NCBI GenBank assembly: GCA_002790095.1
Contig: PFUL01000027.1
Location: 1-36,199 of the forward strand
Source: Elusimicrobia bacterium CG_4_9_14_3_um_filter_62_55
GTDB taxonomy: Bacteria > Elusimicrobiota > Elusimicrobia > UBA1565
Reading direction: 5' to 3'
DNA: 36,199 bases
Shown here piece by piece: positions 423-14,122 of this stretch. Within the stretch, counting starts at the first letter, position 1; each line of letters begins with the position of its first letter. A program made the translations under genes and the position numbers. The notes under the pieces were generated by a model. That model did no database searches. It had not been told where the DNA came from and saw only the letters and a program-made list of their open reading frames with translations.

Positions 423-1757
423 TCATCTTTGCTTGGCCATGATTTCCGGAACGAGGCGTTCCTGCACAAATCGTTCTGTGAAGCCCTCCCGCCAAGGCTC
501 GATTCGAAAATCTGGTCGGAAGGCCGCGACGAAGCGGTGGTAGAAAATGTCGCTTTTGCTCGTATCGCACACGAGCAGGCGCTTTATGGGGTTGTTTCCG
601 CGTTTGGCGATTGCATCGGCGATGCGCGCCCGAACATCACCATCGGTAGCGGGCATATTCCAGCCGATGACGACGACGGACGCGCACTCCTGAAGCTCTC
701 GGTCGATATTCTGCCAAGTCTGCCAGAGAACAGTTCCGTCCAGGGCCTTTGTCGGGCTGGGTGGAATGAGTATAGGCTCAAGTCCGTCGCTGGATGGGCC
801 GAGATACTTGGCAATTAGCTTTGAGTAGCTGTCGCCCGGAGTCGGCAGGATCGGGAGCTTCGGATTCTCCATGTCGAGCAATGGCAGAGACCAGCGGTCG
901 CCGTTTCGCTGGCGGAACCAATAGAGGCTGCCATGCGGCTTGAGGACCGTAACATGGCCTTTGTCGATGTGCGGAAAATGCTTCGGTTTCAGAGCTCGAC
1001 CGTTTCGAAGGTCCTCGCAGGTAATATGCCGCTCGAATCCGACCCCGTAGTTTTCGTGCGGGTTCCAGACGGTCTTGCCGGATCCTCGGTTGGGGTCCGT
1101 AGGATTTTGCCGCTGAAGGGCACGCTCCAGGAGTACGTCGTAATTGAACGAGACGAAGCGGGTGAATCGGGTATAGCCCCGTTTTTGGATGGTGTCGCAA
1201 AGATGGTCTAGCGGCGTGCCCCCTGCGACCGCGCCGGCCTCTTCCTCCAGTTTCCCAAGGAGCCAGAGGATGTAGTTCTTAACTGCGATGAAGGGTTTGT
1301 CATCATCGGTGCGAAGCGCGTACTCTTCGGCCTGGGAGAGCGCCCATTCGATGTTTGTTCGCCGACGTTCTTGGCTCTTAAGGAATTCCTGATTCGATAG
1401 CTTCTTGAGGTATGTCGTTGCTGCTTTTTTAAAAATATCAGTGTCATGGCCGGCAAGAAGGTCTTTGGCCAGCACCCCGTATTCGGGCTCTCCCACAGAC
1501 TCGCCAAACGGCATTCCGGAAAAACTTCCTCCCGACATTCCCATGTTCGAGGGGGGTCCTCCCCAAACACCGCATTCTGAGTGAACAGTTTCCAGACGGG
1601 CCATCATCTGCCAGTACGGGAGAGTATTGCCTGGAGAGTCGGTATTCCGCGAGGCAAATTCAAAACCAAGCTCAAGGAAATCATCCATAAGAGGCATGCG
1701 GGGCCACGCTGCACGTGAAGCCCCGGCGCCAATGAAATAGAGAATCTTTTCACTCAC
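423..1757 (-). CDS. SIR2-like domain protein, probable anti-phage effector
   Basis: A 444-aa protein starting at GTG 1757. The N-terminus has the SIR2 nucleotide-binding signature GAGAS at residues 10-14. SFNYD follows at 203-207, KPHGSLYW at 273-280 and VVVIGWNMP near 361-369; these are the usual landmarks of bacterial SIR2-like proteins. Families with this domain (ThsA, DSR and others) act in anti-phage defence, commonly by depleting NAD+. No transmembrane or fused effector domain is evident, so this is a single-domain type with a long insertion at about 60-180. It is the last gene of the hsd-centred cluster, 46 bases after hsdR. Its start codon lies in the loop of a perfect 11-bp inverted repeat. 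NADase activity and the defence role are inferred from family and location. Confidence 0.82.
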   Translation of the reverse strand: MSEKILYFIGAGASRAAWPRMPLMDDFLELGFEFASRNTDSPGNTLPYWQMMARLETVHSECGVWGGPPSNMGMSGGSFSGMPFGESVGEPEYGVLAKDLLAGHDTDIFKKAATTYLKKLSNQEFLKSQERRRTNIEWALSQAEEYALRTDDDKPFIAVKNYILWLLGKLEEEAGAVAGGTPLDHLCDTIQKRGYTRFTRFVSFNYDVLLERALQRQNPTDPNRGSGKTVWNPHENYGVGFERHITCEDLRNGRALKPKHFPHIDKGHVTVLKPHGSLYWFRQRNGDRWSLPLLDMENPKLPILPTPGDSYSKLIAKYLGPSSDGLEPILIPPSPTKALDGTVLWQTWQNIDRELQECASVVVIGWNMPATDGDVRARIADAIAKRGNNPIKRLLVCDTSKSDIFYHRFVAAFRPDFRIEPWREGFTERFVQERLVPEIMAKQR

Positions 1758-1803: not shown

Positions 1804-4800
1804 TTATGCCGCCCAATCCTTGCAGAGCAGTTCCGCCTGCTCCAGCACCGTCTTGACCGCCTTCTCCTGTTTGTCCGGCGGGTAGCCGTGGCGGCGCAGA
1901 ACGCGCTTGACCATGACGCGCAGATTGGCGCGCACGCTCTCGCGGACAGTCCAGTCGATCGTGGTATTCTTACGCACCGTATCGACGAGTTCGCGGGCGA
2001 TGGCTTTGAGCGTCTCATCGCCGAGAACCTTAACCGCGCTGTCGTTGATCTCCAGTGCGTCATAGAAAGCGATCTCATCGTCGGTCAGGCCTAGCCCCTC
2101 CCCCCGCTGGGAGGCTTCGCGCATTTCCTTCGCGAGCCGGATCAGTTCCTCGATGACCTGCGCAGTCTCGATGGCCCGGTTGCGGTACTTGCGGATGGAC
2201 TCTTCGAGCATCTCCGAGAAGGAACGGGACTGGATCAGAAACTTGCGCTTGCGGAGCTTGATCTCGTCTTGGAGCAGGCGACGCAAGGTCTCCAGGGCGA
2301 GGTTCTTGTGCGGAAGTCCGCGGATCTCGGCTAAGAATTCATCCGAAAGGATGGAAATATCGGGTTTCTTAAGACCCGCCGCTTGGAAAATGTCCACCAC
2401 GCCGTCCGAAGAGACTGCCTTGGAAACGATCTGCCGGATAGCGTGTTCGACCTCTTCCTCGGGTTTGCGCTCGCCGGTGCCGCGCTTGGCCAGCGCGGCC
2501 TTGACCGCCTGAAAAAAAGACACATCGTCGCGAAGGCGCAGGGCTGCGGGCTGCGGCACGGCCAAGGCGAAGGCCTTGGAGAGCTCGGTCACCGCGCGCA
2601 TGAGGCGATCCTTACCCTCCTCCTTGGCCAGGATATGTTCCTGGGCCGGCGGCAGAAGTGCCAACCGCGCCTCAGGTTTGCCCGAAGTCCACGCGCTCCA
2701 ATCGAAGCCGTGGAAGAGGCTCGCGCAGAGCTCATGCTTCTCCTGGATGAGCGCCACGGCCTCGTCCTGGTCGATCGTCGGCCGGCCGCGGCCTTCGTTT
2801 TCCGTGTAGTCGGCGAGCGCCTTCTTAAGCTGATCGGCCAGACCGAGGTAATCGACCACCAAACCGCCGGGTTTGTCCTTGAACACCCGATTGACCCGCG
2901 CGATGGCCTGCATGAGGCCGTGGCTGCGCATGGGCTTGTCCACATACATGGTGTGCAGGCAGGGCGCGTCGAAGCCGGTCAGCCACATATCCCGGACCAG
3001 GACCAGCTTCAAGGTGTCTTTCTCCGCTTTGAATCGCTTCGCCAGGGCGTCGCGGCGCGGCTTGTTGCGGATGTGTCCCTGCCAGTCCTCGGGATCGGAG
3101 GCGCTGCCGGTCATGACGACCTTGATTTGACCCTGGCCATCATCGTTGTCGTGCCACAGAGGCCTGAGCGCGACGATCTGCTTGTAGAGCTCGACGCAGA
3201 TGCGCCGGCTCATGCAGACCACCATGGCTTTGCCCGTCATAACCTCAAGACGAGCTTCAAAATGGTCCACGAGGTCCCGGGCGATTAGGTCCAGTCGCTT
3301 CTCGGTGCCCACAAGAGCCTCGAGCTGCGCCCACCGGGACTTGAGCTTTTCCTTGCGGCCCACTTCCTCGCCCTCAGTTGCCTCCTCGAAGTCGGGGTCG
3401 ATGCGCGGCTTTTCCCGTTCGTTTAGCTCCAGCTTGGCCAGGCGGTTTTCATAGTAGATCGGGACCGTCGCGCCGTCTTTGACCGCCTGCTCGATGTCGT
3501 AGACGCTGATGTGGTCGCCGAAGACATGCCGCGTGTTCTTGTCGTCACCTTCAAGCGGCGTCCCCGTAAAGCCGATAAAGGAGGCGTTGGGCAGCGCGTC
3601 CCGTAGATGACGCGCGAAGCCGTCTATGAAATCGTACTGGCTGCGGTGGGCTTCGTCGGCGATCACGACGATATTGCGCCGGTCAGAAAGCAGCGGGTGC
3701 TTGTCGCCCTTGGTCTCGGGGAAGAATTTCTGAATCGTCGTGAAGACGACCCCGCCCGAGGCGCGCTTAAGCCGCTCCCGCAGGTCGGCGCGGTCACCGG
3801 CCTGCTCCGGAGCTTGGCGCAAGAGGTCCTTGCACAGCGCGAAGTTGTCAAAGAGCTGGCCATCCAGATCGTTGCGGTCGGTGATGACCACGACGGTCGG
3901 GTTCTCCATGTGGGGCTCAAGCACCACGCGGCGGGTATAGAAGGCCATGGTCAGGCTCTTTCCGGACCCCTGGGTGTGCCAAACGACACCGATACGCCGG
4001 TCGCCGCGGGGACGGGAGGCCCGGACCGTCTCCTCGACGGCCGTCATGACGGCGTGGTATTGGTGATAGCCCGCCATCTTCTTGATGAGCTCGCCGCCGC
4101 CGTGGTCCTCGAAAACGATGAAGTCCTGGAGGATGTCCAAGAAGCGTCTCTTCTCGAAGGCTCCCTTGACCAGCACGTCAAGCTGTGGCGTGGAGCCCGG
4201 CGCGGCGCTTTTGCCATCGACGGTGCGCCAGGGCATGAAACGCTCGCGGTCCGCGGTCAGGCTGCCGATGCGGGCTTCGAGGCCGTCGGAAATGACGAGG
4301 GCTTCGTTGTAGGCGAAAAGGGAGGGGATCTGTGCCTTGTAGGTTTGAAGCTGGCGGAACGCGCTCCAGATCGTGGCGTTCTCATCGGCGGGGTTCTTAA
4401 GTTCGATGACGACAAGCGGCAGGCCGTTGACGAAGACGACGATGTCGGGACGGCGGTTGTGTTGGCCTTCGATGACGGTGAACTGATTGACGGCGAGCCA
4501 GTCGTTGTTGTCGGGGTTCTCGAAGTCGATGAGCTTGGCGGCGTCGCCTGAGATCGAGCCGTCCTCACGGCGGGATTCGACTTCGACGCCGTCGGTGAGC
4601 ATCTTGTGGAAGTGTCGGTTGTTGGCGATGAGAGACGGCGAGTGGGCGCGCAGGACCTTTCGGAAGGCTTCTTCTTGGGCTTCGGCGGGCAGGTGTTTGT
4701 TGAGTCGGGTTAGGGCGTTCTTTAGGCGGTCTTCGAGGACGACTTTGTCGAAGGCGTCGCGCTCGCAGGCCGGTCCTTCGGGCTCGAGGTCGGGCCCATG

Positions 4801-4878
4801 GGCTACGGCATAGCCCAGGCCGCTGAACCACTCGAGGCAGGCTTCTTCGACTTCGGATTCGGTGAATCTGTGTCTCAT
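1804..4878 (-). CDS. hsdR: type I restriction enzyme, R (motor/nuclease) subunit
   Basis: A 1024-aa HsdR of normal length. An N-terminal PD-(D/E)XK nuclease is visible as RPDIVVF near 143-149 (PD at 144-145) and ELK at 159-161. The SF2 motor follows: Walker A HTQGSGKS at 301-308, DEAH at 408-411 and FTGTP near 437-441. HsdR binds the HsdM-HsdS methylase, translocates DNA with ATP and cleaves at a distance from unmodified sites. The ATG at 4878 overlaps the stop of the DUF4276 gene as ATGA, implying translational coupling. It is separated from hsdS by about 5 kb of accessory genes. Its first 50-100 bp occur twice more upstream as remnants (6777-6826 and 9080-9194). Confidence 0.96.
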
Positions 4879-5483
4879 CCCAACGCCCGGTTTCCCGCAT
4901 TCACCAGCTGGCCTAAGCAGTCCATCGCTCCGCGTAAACTCTCGGAATATCTTCGAGCGATCATCGGGCGCCAGCGGCTTTGTGTGAATTCTATCAACCT
5001 GGATGTGTATGCGGGCCCGACGGAACGACCGCTACCAGGTCTCGGCACCATATCTTCCCGTATAGGCCTACTTCTAGACGAGGAAGCGACACCAACCATT
5101 TCCTTCTTCGGATCTGCGAGGTCTTCGGGCGTATTCGGCACACGGGCGACGGGAACCGATAGGAAGCGAGCCAACTGCTCTTTGTCCGCTAGGAGCCACG
5201 ATTCGATTTCGTGAACCGCAATGCGAAAGCAAAGATGCTGCGCTGGAGAGGGAAGCCATGTTTGTCGAAATTCAGGGGCGCAAGGAGCGTCATTGTCGAG
5301 ATCCACGATCACCAGCCATAGCGCATGCCTGGCTGCGTTGTTATAGCCAGCGATGCGACTCCGAAGAGTGCCTTTCCCGTTTTTACCATAGATGGAACCG
5401 GGAGAAGCGCCTGCTTGGACGATCAATCGTTTCGCGACGGCCTCGTCCAGTAAGCCCTCGACTGCGGCAGAGACGACCACCAT
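4875..5483 (-). CDS. DUF4276 (TOPRIM-like) protein, partner of the AAA ATPase
   Basis: A 202-aa protein when started at ATG 5483, one base after the stop of the AAA ATPase (TGA-C-ATG), with GGAG about 12 nt upstream. An ATG at 5522 would lengthen it but lacks a ribosome binding site. The VEGLLDEA start, the IVDLDND strand end near the middle and the [11 protein letters not shown] segment are typical of DUF4276, a family related to TOPRIM nucleases. ATPase-TOPRIM pairs form known anti-phage systems (OLD, PARIS, AbiL/RloA-RloB). In these the ATPase senses or assembles and the TOPRIM protein is the nuclease effector. That role is inferred here. The stop overlaps the hsdR start by 4 nt. Confidence 0.78.
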
Positions 5484-5484
5484 G

Positions 5485-6666
5485 TCAGAGGGAATCTCCA
5501 AACAATGAGAGCTGTTCGGCATTTTCAGGCTTGGTTCGAGGCATGACGATTTCGGGAAGCGGTACGCCTCCTTCTAGCAATTCCTTCACCTGAGCAATCG
5601 TATTGGCAGCTTTCACCTCCGAGCCTTCGTTGCCCGGCATCAACAGGGAAACCTCGTCAATACCTATGCCTTCATCCCGAAGCAGATCGGCAGAATGGGT
5701 GCTTAAAATTATTTGCCGACCAGTGTGTCGCTGAATGCGCGCAAAGAGCTGGGGGATGTAGCGTACGACTTCCGGGTGCAACGACAACTCGGGTTCCTCC
5801 AAAAGCAGGGGTCCGCTGCCATCGAGGACCGCCCACAACAACCCCAAAAGGCGCAGCGTTCCGTCGGAGAATTGATCCTCGGTCTGCCACGCTCCCTGAG
5901 GGCGCCAGTGCTGATACTTCCCGTACAAGTGCGGCGTCCCTTTCTTATCCTTATCGAGCTTGATCTCGACAAGCTGCGGAACTGCTACTCGCAAAGCCTT
6001 CTGAATCCGTCGTAAGCGCGCACCCTTGGTCTTCTCGGGAGTGTTGGCAATCTGTTCCAGAAAATCGCCGCCGAAAGGGTCGTTTCGTTTTCCCACAGAG
6101 CGATCCGGCTCCCGAACCAATTGCGGCACGATGTGAAGGTAGTGGGTTGAGGAAAAGAATTCGGAAAGATCGCGGAACTCCTTGTTCACGTTCACCTGTT
6201 CCAGGTAGGTCTGGATCAAGCGCTCCTCGTCCACTTTGTCGTCCTTGTCCGGACGCTCAAAGAGCGTGCGGCCGTTTCTGATCACGGTTTCCTTGCGTAC
6301 AAACGGTCGGCGCTGGTTGTCCTGTGCAAATCGAAGCTCATACATCGTTCTGGAAATTGCGCCGTCTGCGACCTCGACCCGGATCACGATGTCCGGGTTC
6401 TGTCGCGCGGCCAAGGACCTGATTGCGGATACCCCGCCACGCGATTTTACCGCCTGCTGAAAGCCGCCGCCCACCGAGACGATGTCTCGCAGGAAGCGGA
6501 ACGCGTCAAGCAAATTGGACTTCCCGGAGGCGTTTGGTCCGATGAAAAAAACGCGGTTTCCCAGGTCTATCTCGGCGCGAGGGAAGTTTCGCCAGTTTTC
6601 TAGATAAAGTTTTCTGAATTTTCGGCTGGAGCCGGGTTTTTTACCGTTTGGATTTTTGGTTGCCAT
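5485..6666 (-). CDS. AAA family ATPase (AAA_21 / RloA-like)
   Basis: A 393-aa ATPase. The ATG at 6666 has an AGGAG ribosome binding site, and upstream in-frame residues overlap the previous gene, so the longer reading was rejected. Walker A GPNASGKS is near residues 43-50. An ABC-type signature FSDGTLRLL is followed by Walker B LLLEEPELSLHP and the His-containing STHSADLL, the order seen in SMC/OLD-like AAA_21 ATPases. The C-terminal tail carries QLSLF (5500-5514), a perfect match to the beta-sliding-clamp binding consensus. It forms a pair with the adjoining DUF4276 gene. Restriction-linked ORFs of this kind (rloA/rloB) were first named in Campylobacter hsd loci. A phage-defence function is inferred. 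Confidence 0.85.
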   Translation of the reverse strand: MATKNPNGKKPGSSRKFRKLYLENWRNFPRAEIDLGNRVFFIGPNASGKSNLLDAFRFLRDIVSVGGGFQQAVKSRGGVSAIRSLAARQNPDIVIRVEVADGAISRTMYELRFAQDNQRRPFVRKETVIRNGRTLFERPDKDDKVDEERLIQTYLEQVNVNKEFRDLSEFFSSTHYLHIVPQLVREPDRSVGKRNDPFGGDFLEQIANTPEKTKGARLRRIQKALRVAVPQLVEIKLDKDKKGTPHLYGKYQHWRPQGAWQTEDQFSDGTLRLLGLLWAVLDGSGPLLLEEPELSLHPEVVRYIPQLFARIQRHTGRQIILSTHSADLLRDEGIGIDEVSLLMPGNEGSEVKAANTIAQVKELLEGGVPLPEIVMPRTKPENAEQLSLFGDSL

Positions 6667-6679
6667 TAGAGACTCCTTT

Positions 6680-7360
6680 TCATGCGGTGCCGGCCGAAAT
6701 CTTCTCGGCGCATTTGAGTTGGTCCGCGATCTCAAGACTTGATGCGCGAGTTGCGAAAAAGTCCCCGTTCTCAGCCCATTCGAGGCAGGCATCTTCGCCT
6801 TTGGATTCAATGAATTTTGGGCTCATTTTTTCCGACAAAGCGATTGTGGAAAGCTTATCCGCTAACGCGTCCGCGAGTTTTTCATCCGTCGTTATTAAAC
6901 GGAGATGGTCGTTGCTGTAGGCGAGTATGCGGTCGTTCTCTTTGATTGGGACAGGGTATCGTCCCCCCCAGAACATGTATTCCTCGGAGCGCCGAAGCAA
7001 ATCCTTCTCCTTTTCGGTGAGACTAATTTCCAGGGTAGCCGCAATCGTCGAGAGGCCATGCCCGTTGCGATGCTTGAGAGGGCGGCCAGATTTCAGGAGG
7101 CCATCATTTGCCGAGATGAGACCCTTTCTCGCGCCGATGGCCTTCAAAAGGTTCTCAAAGGCGACCCCCTGGAGGAGCATCCATCCGCGAACAAGACCGA
7201 GCATTTCGACTCGGTCTTCAGTGGGGGCGTGGCCGATTTCCATCAGCCTCTTGAATATTGGCCGCGCGGCAATCCGGATGCTCTGCGCATGTTCGATCCA
7301 TTGGCCGGGTTCGAGGGCGATGAGTTGGAACAAATTGTCAGATTCTTGTTGGTTGGTCAT
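6680..7360 (-). CDS. helical hypothetical protein with C-terminal HsdR-derived tail
   Basis: A 226-aa protein. The start at 7360 is fixed by the ATGA overlap with the preceding gene; the frame is open further upstream but those residues overlap other coding sequence. Residues 1-175 are largely helical, with a conserved-looking GHGLSTIA stretch followed by YMFWGGRYPVPI, a pattern I associate with uncharacterised HEPN-like proteins. A canonical RX4-6H motif is not clear. From Met179 onward the sequence MSPKFIESKGEDACLEW mirrors the first residues of HsdR in this window, so the last 48 residues look like a captured, diverged hsdR 5' end. It forms a pair with the 133-aa gene. Function unknown; candidate defence gene by location. 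Confidence 0.65.
   Translation of the reverse strand: MTNQQESDNLFQLIALEPGQWIEHAQSIRIAARPIFKRLMEIGHAPTEDRVEMLGLVRGWMLLQGVAFENLLKAIGARKGLISANDGLLKSGRPLKHRNGHGLSTIAATLEISLTEKEKDLLRRSEEYMFWGGRYPVPIKENDRILAYSNDHLRLITTDEKLADALADKLSTIALSEKMSPKFIESKGEDACLEWAENGDFFATRASSLEIADQLKCAEKISAGTA
6777..6826 (-). repeat. hsdR 5'-end remnant (copy 2), fused in frame
   Basis: These 50 bases align without gaps to the first 50 bases of intact hsdR (4829-4878), with 10 mismatches by eye. The ATG (6824-6826) lines up with the hsdR start codon. At protein level FIESKGEDACLEW matches [13 protein letters not shown]. Similarity fades upstream of 6777 but may continue weakly. The AAA gene begins about 110 bases after this point. 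Confidence 0.85.
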
Positions 7361-7758
7361 TTGGGGGATTTCGCAAGTGCTTGCAGCTTCTCGGCAAGGT
7401 AAAGGATGCGTTCCGTGATTTCCACAGCGCGGTGGAGCCGCATGCCGCGCAGAGTGGCATTTAACCTCCCTTCCGACCAAGTCCTTCCTAAAATCACGCC
7501 GTGGCGTTTCGGCTCTTTTTTCGTTAGAGAATTCCTAATCCAGTGAAAGTCCTCCAAGAGATCATCGGGGATTTCGCTATCCGAAACGGCAACGATTTCC
7601 ACATAGGCATCAAAAAGTCTGGTTTTTATCTTTTCTCTGCCGACTGCTAGGCGGCGAACCGCGCACATAAATTTTTCTCTCGCGTAGAGCGATTGTTGCC
7701 CCTTGTCAGCAAGATCGAGCGTGAACTTCAGCGAGGCCTTTTCTTTGCCGACGCTCAT
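7357..7758 (-). CDS. small helical hypothetical protein
   Basis: A 133-aa protein whose ATG overlaps the stop of the DUF7309-like gene by one base (TAATG), and whose stop overlaps the next start as ATGA. The composition is charged and predicted helical, with Arg/Lys-rich segments (GREKIKTRLFDAYVEIV, then WIRNSLTKKEPKRHG). There is no signal peptide or membrane segment. I do not recognise the family. Tight coupling to the 226-aa protein suggests a two-component unit such as a toxin-antitoxin or sensor-effector pair, which is inference only. Confidence 0.6.
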   Translation of the reverse strand: MSVGKEKASLKFTLDLADKGQQSLYAREKFMCAVRRLAVGREKIKTRLFDAYVEIVAVSDSEIPDDLLEDFHWIRNSLTKKEPKRHGVILGRTWSEGRLNATLRGMRLHRAVEITERILYLAEKLQALAKSPK

Positions 7759-8810
7759 TATCGTAATCCCTTCGCCATCGCTTCAATCAGCCCGTCTTTC
7801 GCCTCTTGTATCGCGGGAAGAAATCGCTTTGCCTTCACGCGCAGGCCGAGCGCCTTACCAAGCGGCGAGAGCGCGGCGACGAGCGGATCTTCGTGGACAT
7901 GGAGTTCGGAAGGTTTGCGTCCATTCTTTTCGATCGCCTGGACGACGGCCTCGGCGATTGTCTGATGGACGGGGTGCTCCGGCGAGACGGCGAGGGCGTT
8001 TAAGATGTAGCCGCTCGGGGCGTGGGCCAACAACAGATATCGGGCGAAGTAAGGTCGCTCGCGGTCCATGATCGGGGCCGGAATAAAGAAGGCTTGGACT
8101 TCCCAGGGCGCGTCGGCTTCAAACGCGGCCAGGGCGTTCAGTTTGTCTGTAGGCAGCGAGAGCGGCGCCGGAGGTTCCGGCCGGTGAACGGGGTAGGGCT
8201 CCCAACGTGCGGTGAATCCTGGGTTTCCAGCGGCGGGAAAGTAGGCGTACACCCGCTCCGGTTGAGCATCAAGATGGATGCGGCCCGCACGCACGCCTTC
8301 GACGGCGTCACCGGCGCATCTGAGCGCAAAGGCGAGAAACACCGCTTCCTGCTCCGTCAAATGCCAGGGGAGGTGGCCCGGAAGGTGGCTGCGAAACAGC
8401 GGCCATCCCCTGCGGCCGCGGAACTTGAGACCAAGATCGCGAATGACGGCCAGGTCGGCGGCCTGGAGTTCCTTTCGCGCCGTCGTTTCGGCCATCAAGG
8501 CGTCCTGGAGGGCGAAGATGTCGTCGGTATCCTGGTCGATCTCGCCGCGCTGCATGCGCTGGTGAACATCAAAACCCCCGGTGCCGCGATAGAGGCAAAG
8601 GGAGAGGACTTGTCCGAGCGCGCCGAGGATGCAGGCGTAGCCCATTTGGCCGGTGACGGGGTCCTGGACGGCGAAGAGGGAATCGTCATCGAAGTCTTGC
8701 CAGGGTTTTAGTTCGGCGAAATGGGTGAATGTGTCGTAGAGTTTTACCCAGGTCGCGTCGGAGACGGCGGGGGGCTTAGGGGGGACGCGCGTCTCTTTAG
8801 GCCTTGTCAT
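7758..8810 (-). CDS. DUF7309/DUF6930-like protein in defence island
   Basis: A 350-aa soluble protein. I chose ATG 8810 because it overlaps the upstream stop as ATGA and has GGAAGG 7 nt upstream; the ATG at 8825 has no ribosome binding site. The N-terminal part (WVKLYDTFTHFAELKPW, then DDSLFAVQDPVTGQMGYACI) resembles a family I know as DUF7309. The C-terminal half (about 200-350) resembles the DUF6930 domain that often follows it. No catalytic motif is recognisable to me. Such proteins also occur outside defence loci, so its immunity role is uncertain. Base composition is GC-rich like hsdR, unlike the AT-richer genes on its downstream side. Confidence 0.6.
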   Translation of the reverse strand: MTRPKETRVPPKPPAVSDATWVKLYDTFTHFAELKPWQDFDDDSLFAVQDPVTGQMGYACILGALGQVLSLCLYRGTGGFDVHQRMQRGEIDQDTDDIFALQDALMAETTARKELQAADLAVIRDLGLKFRGRRGWPLFRSHLPGHLPWHLTEQEAVFLAFALRCAGDAVEGVRAGRIHLDAQPERVYAYFPAAGNPGFTARWEPYPVHRPEPPAPLSLPTDKLNALAAFEADAPWEVQAFFIPAPIMDRERPYFARYLLLAHAPSGYILNALAVSPEHPVHQTIAEAVVQAIEKNGRKPSELHVHEDPLVAALSPLGKALGLRVKAKRFLPAIQEAKDGLIEAMAKGLR

Positions 8811-9064
8811 GTGGAGGCCTTCCATGTCATGAGCGCGGTCAAGATAGTGATGATGACGGTTAGAACTGTTATGGCGATGGTCATGCAGTGCATCTCCCGA
8901 CTAATTCGTATCAATTTCTGATCGTGTTCTTCTCGGTCTCGACGGTAGATTTCCTCAAGCAAGAAGTCGGTGTGAACATTGGTATCTTTGGTGTGGTCGT
9001 CATATTTCTCGATCAGATCATCCTTGCTCATTTTCCGCAAGTTGGCATACTTTGGCGCTTTCAT
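8807..9064 (-). CDS. small tail-anchored membrane protein
   Basis: An 85-aa protein from ATG 9064; a longer reading would need a TTG and runs into hsdR-remnant sequence. The soluble N-terminal part has a LRKMSKDDLIEKYDDHT motif and a charged helix (EEIYRRDREEHDQKL). It is followed by one C-terminal hydrophobic helix (MTIAITVLTVIITILTALMTW), so it is probably tail-anchored in the inner membrane. Similar short proteins are common beside restriction systems. It is coupled by ATGA to the DUF7309-like gene. It could place that partner at the membrane, which is inference. Confidence 0.6.
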   Translation of the reverse strand: MKAPKYANLRKMSKDDLIEKYDDHTKDTNVHTDFLLEEIYRRDREEHDQKLIRISREMHCMTIAITVLTVIITILTALMTWKAST

Positions 9065-9079
9065 AATTTCTCGACATCC

Positions 9080-9194
9080 TTCATGCGATCTGGCCTTACG
9101 GCACGAGGTCGGGGCCGTGGGATACGGTGCAGCCAAGGTTGTCGAGTCACTGGAGGCGAGCCCCTGTGACTTCGAATTCGGTGCAGCGAGTCAT
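9080..9194 (-). pseudogene. decayed hsdR 5' fragment (copy 1)
   Basis: The ATG at 9194 overlaps the Abi-gene stop as ATGA, exactly as intact hsdR overlaps DUF4276. Translation gives MTRCTEFEVTGARLQ, a stop, LDNLGCTVSHGPDLVP and another stop. This parallels the HsdR N-terminus residue by residue, including VxHGPDLxP. At DNA level 9100-9194 aligns with 4781-4878 at roughly three-quarters identity with one 3-base gap; similarity trails off near 9080. The two in-frame stops make it non-functional. It marks where hsdR once began, directly after the Abi gene. Confidence 0.88.
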
Positions 9195-9991
9195 GACTTC
9201 GTCTGAATATGAGTCTCAAATAGGAATGTTGCTAGTGTCGCTGCTGCGCCTACAGCGAGTTTCGCATGACGAGGTTTTAGCGTGGAAGCCTTTCCGTGCT
9301 TGCCATGGCCCGTTCCGTAAAGGTTTCGCAATTCGGCAAGCCCTTGGCAAACCGTGCCGAGATTATTGAGAAGACGCTTAATTGTATTCGCGCCTTTTGC
9401 GGAATCGGGAATTTCATTTGGAACAAGCTTTAACTCCTTCATAGCCATTTTCATGAGCGCAGGGATATCCGGTTGCCCTTCGACAGGGGCTTCTCGCTCT
9501 GCAAGGATCGTCTTGCAGCATGTCTCTATCAGTTCCTTCGCTGTGCCGATTGCAAGGCTTGGATCACAGTCAACGGCGTTCTCCATGCGCTGGATTTGGT
9601 CAGCAAGATGATTAGCGTCGAGCGCCTTCGCGTGATTTTTTAACGGCTTGAGGGCAGTGGACCCCGCAAGTAGCCGTGAGGCAATCTGACGGCATCTCTC
9701 CCCCAGACTCTTGTTCTCTGGAGTTTGATGCTCTGTCGAGGTAGATGCGTACTTCACGAGTTCGAGCAATAGTTTCCCAACGACAGGGTCCGACTCGAGC
9801 TTCCAGAAAGCCCGCAGTTTATTGGCTTTCGAGGTGCCTCCAATCTCAAATCTTTCGGAGTGGATGTCCATCTCGACGGCTTCGCCAATGAATTCACTGA
9901 AAGTCCGATCGGAAAATGTCAACACATACCCAGACGACATTCCGAAATACTGTTCGAGATCGCGCCTTTCAGTAAAGCTGAGTGAGCTCAT
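9191..9991 (-). CDS. abortive-infection family protein (AbiJ-like N-term, HEPN C-term)
   Basis: A 266-aa protein with ATG 9991 overlapping the hsdS stop as ATGA. The N-terminal 80 residues (GYVLTFSDRTFSEFIGEAV, then SKANKLRAFW) match the AbiJ-type N-terminal domain. The C-terminal half has the Abi_C pattern ELIETCCKTIL followed by LRNLYGTGHGKHG. Arg222-X6-His229 there fits the HEPN ribonuclease motif. HEPN effectors of this type cleave RNA and arrest growth on phage infection; that role is inferred. It immediately follows hsdS and, judging by the remnant overlapping its stop, once immediately preceded hsdR. Its base composition is AT-richer than hsdM. Confidence 0.8.
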   Translation of the reverse strand: MSSLSFTERRDLEQYFGMSSGYVLTFSDRTFSEFIGEAVEMDIHSERFEIGGTSKANKLRAFWKLESDPVVGKLLLELVKYASTSTEHQTPENKSLGERCRQIASRLLAGSTALKPLKNHAKALDANHLADQIQRMENAVDCDPSLAIGTAKELIETCCKTILAEREAPVEGQPDIPALMKMAMKELKLVPNEIPDSAKGANTIKRLLNNLGTVCQGLAELRNLYGTGHGKHGKASTLKPRHAKLAVGAAATLATFLFETHIQTKS

Positions 9992-11280
9992 GATATGGCC
10001 GTTTCTGCGAGATTGTCGACCCGCAGGTTTCCAGAAATCAGCTTCGGTAACAAAGCGTCACGTAGAGCAGCCAATCCCTCCGTCTCTCGGCCGGTCTGAG
10101 TAATGCGCTTTGCGACAGAAGACACGATACCGCCGAATGCCTGAAACACCGGGGTATCAGGTAGAGGGACCAGGAATTGTTCGAAGCATGAAATTGGCAC
10201 GCGTTGCCGGCCGCTTGAACCTGTCATGCTCTGAATTGCATGTTGGCGGAAATCCTCGCTCCGCGCGAGGAGATACCCCCAGTATTTCGGTATGGGGGGC
10301 TTCGGACGCATCACAATGTACTCCGTCGACCCCCATCCTGTCTGGCCATCGGACAAGAAGTCCACGAGCGAGGTCTTCCCATTTTCTAGGCAGGGAGTGA
10401 TGCGAGCAACTAGGGTGTCGCCGTTCTGGAACCGAGAGCCTGAGCCAAACGGCCGGAGATAGGCTCCTGTCGCATGATGGCCTCGTGTCGGCATCATTTT
10501 CATATCCAAGTAGGGAGCCTCGACGCCCTTCTTGAGGGGTCTGGGTGGGTTAAGGTCGACAACCTCGGATAGTGATTTCGCTTGCCATCCCTTCGGAATC
10601 TTCCCCATCGGCGAGTCTAGGAAGGAGTCGGGAAAGAGTGCCGCGATCTCCTCGCTCATGCCCGCGGGCTTGCGCCCCTCCATCTTGGCGCGGACGGGAT
10701 CGAAATCCACGAACCAGGACTTGAAGATGGCGCGGGCCATGGCCTCCAGCGTCTCGTTTATGCGGCGGTTGAGTTCGATCTTGTCGTCGAGGGAGCCGAG
10801 GATGTCTACGATGGCGCGTTGCTCTTGAATCACGGGAAGCCGCAGGCGCATCTTGCGTGCGGAACCCACGTTGAAGTGCTGCTGGACGGCCCCCACCAAA
10901 TGTGAGTTCACATGGTGCACGGCCACAGAGTTGACGTAGTAGGCCAGGAATCGCGGATCAAGATCTGACCCGCAGCGGATAATGACGAGGTCTGAGCAGT
11001 TCGCTTTGGGGAGAGTCGGCGGCACAACCGCGCAGGCACCAGGTTTGCCCGTGCGGACAATGACAACATCTCCGGGGGATAGCGTTGATTTTTTAAGGCG
11101 TGCATGGAAGTCCGGTGAGACAAACTTGAGGTCTTCCCGATTGATGGTAAGCGGGTCGACGTTTTGTGAACGAAGGAATGGGATGCCATCGGCTAAATAC
11201 TCAGAGGCCATCGGTCCAACATAGCCGACAGTGACTTCCGTGGCGACCTCCTCTAACGTGGTCTCCCGCCATTCACTCAT
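9988..11280 (-). CDS. hsdS: type I restriction-modification specificity subunit
   Basis: A 430-aa HsdS of normal length. I chose ATG 11280 (AAGGAG about 11 nt upstream, 8-nt overlap with the YhcG gene) over an upstream TTG. There are two target-recognition halves, each followed by a conserved helical spacer. The first ends with RAIVDILGSLDDKIELNRR and FKSWFVDFDPVRAKMEGR. The second begins WQAKSLSEVVDLNPP and contains the GSSGRQRVPIS element typical of HsdS. It directs both methylation and restriction by recognising a bipartite target. The recognition site cannot be read from sequence. It is coupled to the Abi gene by ATGA. Confidence 0.95.
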   Translation of the reverse strand: MSEWRETTLEEVATEVTVGYVGPMASEYLADGIPFLRSQNVDPLTINREDLKFVSPDFHARLKKSTLSPGDVVIVRTGKPGACAVVPPTLPKANCSDLVIIRCGSDLDPRFLAYYVNSVAVHHVNSHLVGAVQQHFNVGSARKMRLRLPVIQEQRAIVDILGSLDDKIELNRRINETLEAMARAIFKSWFVDFDPVRAKMEGRKPAGMSEEIAALFPDSFLDSPMGKIPKGWQAKSLSEVVDLNPPRPLKKGVEAPYLDMKMMPTRGHHATGAYLRPFGSGSRFQNGDTLVARITPCLENGKTSLVDFLSDGQTGWGSTEYIVMRPKPPIPKYWGYLLARSEDFRQHAIQSMTGSSGRQRVPISCFEQFLVPLPDTPVFQAFGGIVSSVAKRITQTGRETEGLAALRDALLPKLISGNLRVDNLAETAIS

Positions 11281-12334
11281 CGCGCCCAAGCTCCTTCTCA
11301 ATCTCCTTCACCGTCGGCAACTTCGTCTTGAGCTTCTCCGGCAGCGACCGCGTCAACTTATACGCCGAAACCCCAATCGGCTTATGCGCGTCCCTCAGCG
11401 CATACTCGGCGATCAGCTTATTCTTCGACTTGCAGAGAATAATGCCGACGCTCGGCTGGTCGTCCTTATGCCGTAGCCGGTCGTCCACCGCTGAAAGATA
11501 GAAATTCATCTTGCCCGCGTACTCCGGCTTGAACGCCCCCGTCTTAAGTTCGATGACCACATAACAGCGCAGCCGCAGATGGTAAAAGAGCAGGTCGATG
11601 TAGAAGTCCTCGCCGCCGACCTCCAGGTGAACCTGCCGTCCCACGAACGCGAAGCCTACGCCTAGCTCCAACAGGAACTTCTGGATATGGTCGATGAGTC
11701 CCTGCTCCAACTCCCGCTCCCGGGCATCGTCGGCCAGGGTCAAAAAGTCGAAGGTGTAGGGGTCCTTGATGATTTCCTGCGCCAAATCCGACTGCGGCGC
11801 CGGCAAGGCCTTTTTGAAATTGGTGAGCGCCTTGCCCTGCCGCTTGTGCAGGCCCGACTCGATCTGATGCACGAGAACGGCGCGGCTCCAGCCGTGCTCG
11901 AGGGTTTTTTGCGCGTACAAAAGGCGCACCGCGGGATCTTTGATCTTTTGGAGGAGAACGATGTTTTGGCCCCAGGGGATTTGTCCAACAGGTTGTTGGA
12001 CGATCGGCCCGTCGGGATACGCCTCCGCGAACGCCCGCATGTAGAGCAGATTCGCCCGCGAAAACCCCTTCATCTCCGGAAACGAGATGTGAAGATCTTT
12101 GGCCAATCGTGCTACGACCTTGGCGCCCCATCCTTCCTTGCTCTGACGAATCAGGATTCCTCGTCCAATGTCCCAATAGAGCCCAATCATTTCCGAGTTG
12201 GCGGAAAGGGCGGCCTTGAAGCGGGCCGAGCGAACGCGATTCTTTATCTCTTCGAGAAATTGCGGGTAGTCGGGCGGCAGCCCGCGAGGTTCTATCACGG
12301 CCCGTGATAGATTTTTCCGCTTCTTAGACGCCAT
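11273..12334 (-). CDS. YhcG/DUF1016 PD-(D/E)XK nuclease
   Basis: A 353-aa protein from ATG 12334, with AAGGTGG just upstream and an 11-nt overlap with hsdM. The N-terminal DUF1016 region includes LYWDIGRGI near 52-60 and [16 protein letters not shown] near 91-106. The C-terminal PD-(D/E)XK domain shows Asp247 in FYIDLLFYH and ELK at 262-264. This family is common beside type I restriction genes and is thought to be a nuclease, but its cellular role is poorly defined. Its position between hsdM and hsdS, coupled on both sides, suggests co-regulation with the methylase. Confidence 0.9.
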
Positions 12335-13934
12335 ACCCCACCTTCTTGAGGTTCTCGCGGATCGCCTTCTCAAGCGCCGCGGACTCGGCGAACTGATCTT
12401 TGAGTTGGGCCGTCAGACGCTTCATCTTCTCATCGAACGGCTCGCCGTCATCCTCCACCTCTTCCGCGCCCACATAGCGTCCTGGGGTGAGCACATGGCC
12501 GTGCTGCTCGATCTCCTCTAAAGAAGCGCTCTTGCAGAAGCCCGCGACATCCTCGTATTTGCCCGCGCCCTTCTCGCCCCGCCAGGCGTGGTAGGTCCGG
12601 GCGATCTTCTGGATGTCCGCATCGGAAAACTCCTTATGAGTACGGTCCACCAGCGCGCCCGTCTTACGGGCATCGATAAACAGGGTCTTTCCGCGGCGGT
12701 TCCTAAACTTGCCGTTGGACTTGTCCCGCGCTAGAAACCAAAGGCAGGCGGGTATCTGCGTACCGTAGAAGAGCTGAGAGGGCAGGGCCACCATGCAGTC
12801 CACAAGATCGGCCTCGATGATGTTCTTACGGATATCGCCCTCGCCCGACTGGTTGGAGGACATCGAGCCGTTGGCCAGCACGAAGCCGGCCGTTCCGCGC
12901 GGGGCCAGGTGATGGATCATGTGCTGGACCCAGGCGAAGTTGGCGTTTCCCGCCGGAGGGACGCAGAACTTCCAGCGCGCGTCGCCCTTAAGGCGCTCGC
13001 CTCCCCAGTCGCTCATGTTAAACGGCGGGTTGGCCAGGATGAAGTCGGCCTTCACATCGCGGTGCAGGTCACTGTGAAAGGTGTCGGCGTTTCGGGGGCC
13101 TAAGTCGGCCTCGATGCCGCGCAGGGCGAGGTTCATCTTGGCCAGCTTCCAGGTCGTAGGGTTGGACTCCTGGCCGTAGACGGAGATGTCCTTCCTGCCG
13201 CCGCCGTGAGCCAGGATGAACTCCTCGCTTTGCACGAACATGCCGCTTGAGCCGCAGCAAGGATCGTAGATCCGGCCTTTGTAGGGCTCGATCATCTCGA
13301 CTAAAAGCCGGACGATGCAGCGCGGGGTGTAGAACTCGCCTCCCTTCTTGCCCTCGGCGCTAGCGAATTGAGAGAGGAAATATTCGTAGACGCGTCCCAG
13401 GATGTCCTTGGAGCGGTTCTCCTTGTCGCCAAGCCCGATAGTGCTGATAAGATCGATGAGCTCGCCGAGTTTCTGCTTGTCGAGCGACGGCCGTGCGTAG
13501 TCCTTCGGGAGAACGCCCTTAAGCGGGGGGTTCTTGCGCTCGATCTCGACCATGGCGTCGTCGATCAGCTTGCCGATCGTCGGCTGCTTGGCCTGGGCTT
13601 GAAGCGTGGACCAGCGCGCCTTGGGCGGGACCATGAAGACATTGGCGGCCTTGTATTCGTCGGGGTCCTCGATGACCTCTTGCCGATGCCCGGGCTCCCG
13701 AACGAACATGGCCCCGCCGGGGCGGGAGACCTCTTCGTTGAGAAAGCTTCGATGTTCTTCGAATGCGTCCGAGATGTACTTGAGAAAGATGAGGCCGAGA
13801 ACTACATGCTTGTACTCGCCGGGGTCCATGTGCCCGCGCATCTTGTCGGCGGCCTGCCAGAGCTTCTCCTCGAAGCCGAGGCTCGCGCCGTTGTTTTTCT
13901 TTCCTTCTTTCTTTCGGGTCTTTGCGCGAGCCAT
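12324..13934 (-). CDS. hsdM: type I DNA methyltransferase (M) subunit
   Basis: A 536-aa N6-adenine methyltransferase. It starts at ATG 13934, overlapping the HTH-gene stop as TGATG, with AGAGGA upstream. The N-terminal HsdM_N domain ([19 protein letters not shown]) precedes the SAM-binding motif [11 protein letters not shown] near 222-232 and the catalytic NPPF at about 302-305. Two HsdM plus one HsdS form the methylase that protects host DNA; HsdR joins for restriction. It is complete, with no lesion seen. Confidence 0.96.
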
Positions 13935-14122
13935 CAAATCCTCTGGTACTTTGTCCCGCGCGCTTTAAGTACCTCGGTGCGCAGGAAAATCCAAGCCTCG
14001 TTGCCGCCGATCTTGCCCCAAGGCTTGAGCTTGCCCTGCCCGATCCATGAGTAGAGGGTAGGCCGGCTGATTTTAAGAAGCTCGCAGGCTTCCCGGGTGC
14101 TGACGATATCTTGTGGGCGCAT
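13934..14122 (-). CDS. excisionase/MerR-type HTH DNA-binding protein
   Basis: A 62-aa protein from ATG 14122 (66 aa if TTG 14134 is used). [20 protein letters not shown] is a clear winged-helix HTH_17 motif: the acidic residue before the second helix, then a recognition helix and a wing ([11 protein letters not shown]). Proteins of this kind are phage excisionases or small regulators. As the first gene of the hsd operon it may act as a control protein that times expression of methylase and nuclease, which is inference. A TATATT -10-like hexamer (14143-14148) lies upstream without a good -35. Confidence 0.8.

Follow-up and report, generated by a model that had tools for sequence, protein, structure and literature searches.

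Our data suggest that in the window (the whole stretch of DNA analysed, 36,199 nt of a contig from a metagenome-assembled genome) the junction between hsdS and hsdR of a Type I restriction-modification (R-M) operon acts as a slot for defence and addiction genes. Such cargo would enter with the 5′ part of a new hsdR attached to it, and this incoming hsdR would recombine within the conserved body of the one already present. At its other end the incoming DNA would be joined at a point about 50–400 bp into the resident gene, whose 5′ end would remain as a stub on the upstream side of the cargo. Stubs of this kind are present in the window and at other loci, and from them we infer the recombination route. 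At least two arrivals may be stacked in the window, a four-gene cassette after stub 1 and the HEC-01 genes after stub 2. The four cassette genes would have gathered in the slot separately and would be translated together with the R-M operon, rather than form one four-part machine. We assign a probability of roughly 0.6 to this joint explanation by a slot, stub-leaving arrivals and four separate accessory genes.

All features of the operon lie on the minus strand (Table 1), in the order HTH_17-hsdM-yhcG-hsdS-Abi_C-[stub 1]-85 aa-DUF7309/6930-133 aa-226 aa (its tail being stub 2)-AAA-DUF4276-hsdR-SIR2-like. The original prediction had described four co-oriented ORFs with 1–4 nt overlaps inside the R-M operon (9064-6680), bracketed by hsdR remnants, and both observations were confirmed. 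The ORFs overlap by 4 nt (8810-8807), 1 nt (7758) and 4 nt (7360-7357), and are located between hsdS and hsdR on the same strand (operon order 11280-4878). The GC content at third codon positions (GC3) is host-like for hsdR and hsdM (0.81; host 0.79, sd 0.05) and amounts to 0.53–0.72 for the cargo genes. Gene calls at unannotated loci were made with a simple codon model, and several neighbours were identified by eye from their translations.

Table 1. Features of the R-M operon in the window, and stubs and DUF7309 genes at other loci.
Feature	Position or locus	Strand	Evidence and remarks
HTH_17 protein, 62 aa, first gene of operon	13934..14122	-	Pfam PF12728 E 3e-12; 1-nt overlap with hsdM
hsdM, methyltransferase subunit	12324..13934	-	similarity to hsdM of related loci and position; GC3 host-like
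yhcG (DUF1016), PDDEXK nuclease	11273..12334	-	PF06250 E 3e-69, PF17761 E 4e-42; PADLOC PDC-S02
hsdS, specificity subunit	9988..11280	-	translation and operon position
Abi_C protein	9191..9991	-	PF14355 E 5e-28
hsdR 5′ stub 1	9094..9194	-	DNA alignment, shuffles, junction with Abi_C
Tail-anchored membrane protein, 85 aa	8807..9064	-	hydropathy; G214 homologue E 1e-20
DUF7309-DUF6930 protein, 350 aa	7758..8810	-	PF23988 E 5e-44, PF22007 E 2e-20; possible upstream start 8825
Helical protein without family match, 133 aa	7357..7758	-	AF2 all-helical, pLDDT 65; one Leptospira plasmid relative
226-aa ORF: HEPN-like core of ~177 aa plus hsdR-derived tail	6680..7360	-	homologues; relative L089 vs PF05168 E 2e-4
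hsdR 5′ stub 2 and following bases, in-frame tail of 226-aa ORF	6680..6826	-	clear homology 6826-6731
AAA ATPase, HEC-01A	5485..6666	-	PADLOC HEC-01A E 4e-157
DUF4276 protein, HEC-01B	4875..5522	-	PADLOC HEC-01B E 2e-64; ATGA overlap with hsdR
hsdR, intact	1804..4878	-	PADLOC REase_I, 1160 bits
SIR2-like gene directly 3′ of hsdR	423-1757	-	30% identical relative upstream of L074 R-M operon (4189-5088)
hsdR stub	L072		89 nt, 81%
hsdR stubs, two	L081		412 nt, 84%; 67 nt, 85%
hsdR stub	L111		135 nt, 87%
hsdR stub	L115		184 nt, 82%
hsdR stub, Deinococcus grandis plasmid	L125		259 nt, 90%
DUF7309 gene directly 3′ of yhcG, same strand	L026, L028, L032 (G008:C35, G183:C87, G161:C2)		possible partner genes

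The remnants on both flanks of the cassette are real at the DNA level. Stub 1 (9183-9094) aligns with nt 15-104 of hsdR at 73.3% identity over 90 nt (E 3e-10), and stub 2 (6826-6776) with nt 1-51 at 80.4% over 51 nt (E 4e-8; 37.5% over 32 aa at the protein level). The local scores of 60 and 52, respectively, compare with a maximum of 26 in 300 shuffles. The ATG of stub 1 at 9194 overlaps the stop codon of Abi_C as ATGA (9194-9191), and three in-frame stop codons follow within the stub. The same type of junction is seen in L074, where hsdS, Abi_C and an intact hsdR with ATGA overlap represent the order of an empty site. A relative of the window Abi_C (61% identical) in genome G223 (L072) is likewise followed by an hsdR stub. 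Stub 2 begins at the ATG at 6826, in frame with the 226-aa ORF, and encodes about 49 C-terminal residues; the last residues of the 226-aa protein are therefore read from old hsdR DNA. An independent homologue of 183 aa (L010) ends near the start of stub 2.

Besides the window, the survey covered 40 more hsdR loci from this class and 12 on plasmids of other lineages, with the 5′ end of each locus's own hsdR as query. Six of the 53 hsdR loci carry stubs, eight in all, in four Elusimicrobiota families and on one Deinococcus plasmid (Table 1), and at these loci the stub is located before the cargo and the intact hsdR after it. Weak matches in L071 and L129, and one of 21 nt in L069, were discounted as chance similarity. 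Among control genes of the same loci, 5′ stubs were found for 2 of 248 at E 1e-6 (P 5e-4 for the comparison with hsdR): L076 contains the first 56 nt of hsdM (10934-10989, 86%) 140 nt upstream of hsdM, and L074 the first 115 nt of a TcmP-like gene (8138-8252, 91%) 3 kb upstream of that gene. When hsdR was compared to hsdM alone, stub frequency did not differ significantly (P 0.19). Since control genes also bear stubs, the scar is enriched at hsdR without being exclusive to it. The D. grandis stub (L125, 5093-5449) is annotated as hypothetical protein DEGR_37280; databases may therefore list stubs as spurious genes. No description of hsdR stubs was found in the titles, abstracts and selected passages of the literature searched.

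While the embedding of defence genes in R-M operons is already known, the stubs bear on the route of entry. Each arrival leaves such a physical scar, from which the order of events in time can be read, and automated searches for stubs are feasible in any genome. Stubs also delimit cargo objectively, and genes of unassigned function between two stubs are therefore good candidates for defence screens. The strongest outcome is the stub scar as evidence for how immune operons take up cargo, and the defence setting of the cassette is strengthened.

A target-site duplication starts as an identical copy and then decays without constraint. For the short stretches available, omega (Nei-Gojobori) was calculated between stub and intact hsdR. 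The 136-codon stub of L081 gave an omega of 0.106, with 10/8/47 differences at the three codon positions. Values of 0.045 (L081 stub 1), 0.165 (L111) and 0.178 (L115) were obtained for other stubs, while intact homologue pairs gave 0.06–0.20. As omega in these three loci is near that of functional alleles, most of the divergence between these stubs and the present hsdR would date from a time when both genes were functional, which favours replacement of a resident hsdR by incoming cargo plus hsdR. In the better-preserved stubs the codon pattern thus points to replacement by a diverged hsdR allele. The stubs of L125 (0.26, few differences) and L072 (0.41) gave higher values and, like those of the window, may be older. 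In the window omega was about 0.6 for stub 2 and stub 1 looked neutral, both stubs being too short or too decayed for a call between replacement and duplication. Exchange of hsdR among close relatives fits the base composition, with hsdR and hsdM host-like and cargo lower in GC3.

The best surviving alternative is that the stubs are no replaced alleles but target-site duplications, generated when a cassette inserted at the hsdR start. Each stub is most similar to the hsdR of its own locus, the omegas of the window, L072 and L125 are compatible with duplication, and insertion with long target duplication is a mechanism named in the R-M literature. Passages of PMC3240628 describe it together with homology-facilitated illegitimate recombination; in both mechanisms foreign DNA joins a locus through one-sided homology or leaves a copied stretch at the junction. 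The differences in L081, L111 and L115, however, are mostly synonymous (omega 0.05–0.18; P 6e-6 for L081 stub 2 against an omega of 0.5). This codon pattern suggests allele replacement, nearer to homology-facilitated illegitimate recombination than to long target duplication, and we regard duplication as unlikely. Later recombination that overwrote the intact hsdR could mimic a low stub omega. At L081, L111 and L115, incoming cargo and hsdR most likely replaced the resident hsdR. With somewhat less than even odds, hsdR might serve as a general homology anchor for building embedded immune operons: defence cargo and the hsdR 5′ end would be exchanged between related Type I R-M loci, the resident hsdR would be beheaded, and the stubs would form a fossil record of the stacking order. 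The four-gene cassette would then be an arrival that likely brought in one or more new defence genes, with the HEPN-like protein of 226 aa and the association of DUF7309 with YhcG as the first candidates.

Cargo in this slot or operon elsewhere includes SIR2, RhuM/Fic, VapBC, HEPN/nucleotidyltransferase pairs, HEC-01, a ZorD-like helicase, Abi_C, ORF6N with Fic, FRG, DUF4268, TPR/AAA and small proteins without assignment. The slot usually holds toxin-antitoxin (TA) or defence genes (HEC-01, SIR2, VapBC, Fic, Abi_C). In L070 (15298-16419) a cargo protein fuses an Abi_C domain to a segment resembling the C-terminus of a Type I R subunit (T1RH-like_C, E 6e-5). HEC-01, an embedded candidate of PADLOC consisting of AAA and DUF4276 genes, is the neighbour of the cassette (6666-4875) and recurs in the slot in L081 and L082; the cassette, unlike HEC-01, matches no HEC model. 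A search of titles and abstracts for HEC-01 and DUF4276 found nothing useful. In the passages of PMC12255303, DarTG2 is located between hsdS and hsdR in the RptR island of EPEC, and the site is called a potential recombination hotspot for defence systems. The window shares with this island unrelated defence genes between Type I hsdS and hsdR, but its cargo is without assigned function and its arrivals are marked by hsdR 5′ stubs, which those passages do not mention. PMC11411939 describes the gene group TgvAB, likewise embedded in a Type I R-M operon (in VPI-2 of Vibrio cholerae), and demonstrates its protection against phages. The two GmrSD-like components of TgvAB act together, whereas none of the four window genes resembles it by PADLOC.

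None of the four cassette proteins had a significant PADLOC or NCBIfam match, in agreement with the original prediction that they belong to no named defence system. No significant Pfam match was obtained for the 85-aa, 133-aa and 226-aa proteins, and no convincing PDB sequence match for the 133-aa, 226-aa and DUF7309-DUF6930 proteins. Matches of the 226-aa protein to HetE-N, GapS6a and CARF-PIN were rejected as weak (E 0.016–0.06), and the Pfam one among them vanished once the hsdR-derived tail was left off.

The 226-aa protein is assigned to a divergent HEPN-like family, its predicted fold being supported through relatives. Against HEPN (PF05168), the relative in L089 scored 21.8 bits (cut-off 22) and that in L091 E 0.12, and the order of the E..K, H.L and RYP positions is shared; the window protein itself stays below detection. 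E69, K73, H101, W131 and Y135 are invariant in seven family sequences. The Rx4-6H motif is not conserved in this family, unlike in HEPN ribonucleases: it occurs singly at differing places and is absent in 2 of 7 sequences. The AF2 model had a pLDDT of 39.5. Relatives adjoin an R-M pair (Bradyrhizobium), HipBA (Alteromonas), Fic/Doc (L010) or mobile DNA, and a pattern-limited scan of the whole genome collection with the family alignment yielded one relative only. The protein is probably of an RNA-directed toxin or antitoxin type.

The 133-aa protein is an orphan. A structure search with its AF2 model (pLDDT 65) against the PDB gave no match with E below 2. The single relative is encoded on a Leptospira plasmid, where it forms the C-terminal part of a longer protein. 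Could the 133-aa and 226-aa proteins be a TA pair of helical partner and HEPN-like toxin? The 4-nt overlap of the 226-aa gene with a small gene upstream, the HEPN-like relatives and their other TA neighbours would agree with this. We nevertheless consider it improbable: no 133-aa relative is found near any 226-aa relative in the loci examined, the Leptospira protein has no 226-aa neighbour, and a conserved catalytic HEPN motif is lacking.

The DUF7309 and DUF6930 domains of the 350-aa protein, as originally predicted, were clearly recognised by Pfam (150 and 74 bits; cut-offs 27). The DUF7309 family is present in 11 of 117 class genomes. Of 12 DUF7309 genes elsewhere, three stand immediately after yhcG (P about 8e-8; some of the chance expectations used here, which involve gene counts and independence, are rough). 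By eye, the neighbours of other DUF7309 genes were RhuM-, HepT-, PRiA4-like or R-M genes, and some DUF7309 genes are located among ordinary genes (L025, L030). YhcG is encoded in the window operon as well, but there it is parted from DUF7309 by hsdS, Abi_C and the membrane protein gene. Given this genomic association, the DUF7309 protein probably acts as an accessory to the YhcG nuclease; the two families, neither with a settled function, could thus be tested as partners. Searches of titles and abstracts for DUF7309 and DUF6930 found nothing useful. A paralogue on contig C114 of G000 (L002, 490-2502, minus strand) has a DUF7309-DUF6930-TPR-SEC-C architecture and is located near R-M- and helicase-like genes.

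The 85-aa protein has a clear C-terminal hydrophobic helix (Kyte-Doolittle maximum 2.46 at residues 60-78), in line with the predicted tail anchor. Among 231 class genomes the only other believable copy is that of G214 (58% identical over 56 residues), which stands alone between hsdS and hsdR, in the same slot as in the window. A third match (G109) was rejected, as it overlaps a 145-aa gene resembling NusB. A copy from Xanthomonas adjoins an AbiU2 gene. Most likely the protein represents a membrane-anchored accessory of Type I R-M operons, an association seen in two genomes only.

Relatives of three of the four proteins were found near defence genes and not mostly in housekeeping contexts, and a putative defence role of the cassette genes is plausible by position. 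No less doubtful than a TA pair is the view that the four genes are passengers without defence role, kept by chance in an insertion-tolerant slot. DUF7309 is also fused to TPR and SEC-C and located beside the ordinary genes mentioned above, and sugar-metabolism genes surround one relative of the 226-aa protein, which nevertheless adjoins HipBA. Against this view, the four reading frames have all stayed open although the adjoining stub 1 has decayed, slot cargo elsewhere is dominated by TA and defence families, and DUF7309 is associated with YhcG.

No two of the four genes co-occur in the homologous loci examined, which come mostly from one class and plasmids, most proteins having been searched in genome collections near the window; viral contigs contained no relative of any of the four. 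Sampling of homologues beyond this class was limited, and a conserved pair may have escaped the comparison. Since no two genes co-occur and GC3 differs between them, the cassette resembles a patchwork of accessory genes more than a single, proven new defence system. The proposed division into two pairs (membrane protein with DUF7309, 133-aa with 226-aa protein) likewise found no support, as neither pair co-occurs and 226-aa relatives lack a 133-aa partner. Least probable is the originally suggested single defence module, for which we would envisage a cytoplasmic sensor (DUF7309 and/or 133-aa protein) controlling a HEPN-like effector and a membrane-disrupting small protein: the translational coupling by 1–4 nt overlaps, the single block bounded by two stubs, the position in a slot for defence genes and the lack of a match to a known system would fit a co-inherited module, but there is no second locus with any two of the genes among those examined, each family is found on its own elsewhere (the membrane protein alone in G214), and base composition differs.

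Similar 62-aa HTH_17 proteins are encoded at the head of the window R-M operon and in L027 (8180-8368) just before a DUF7309 gene. They represent a possible regulator comparable in place to RptR.
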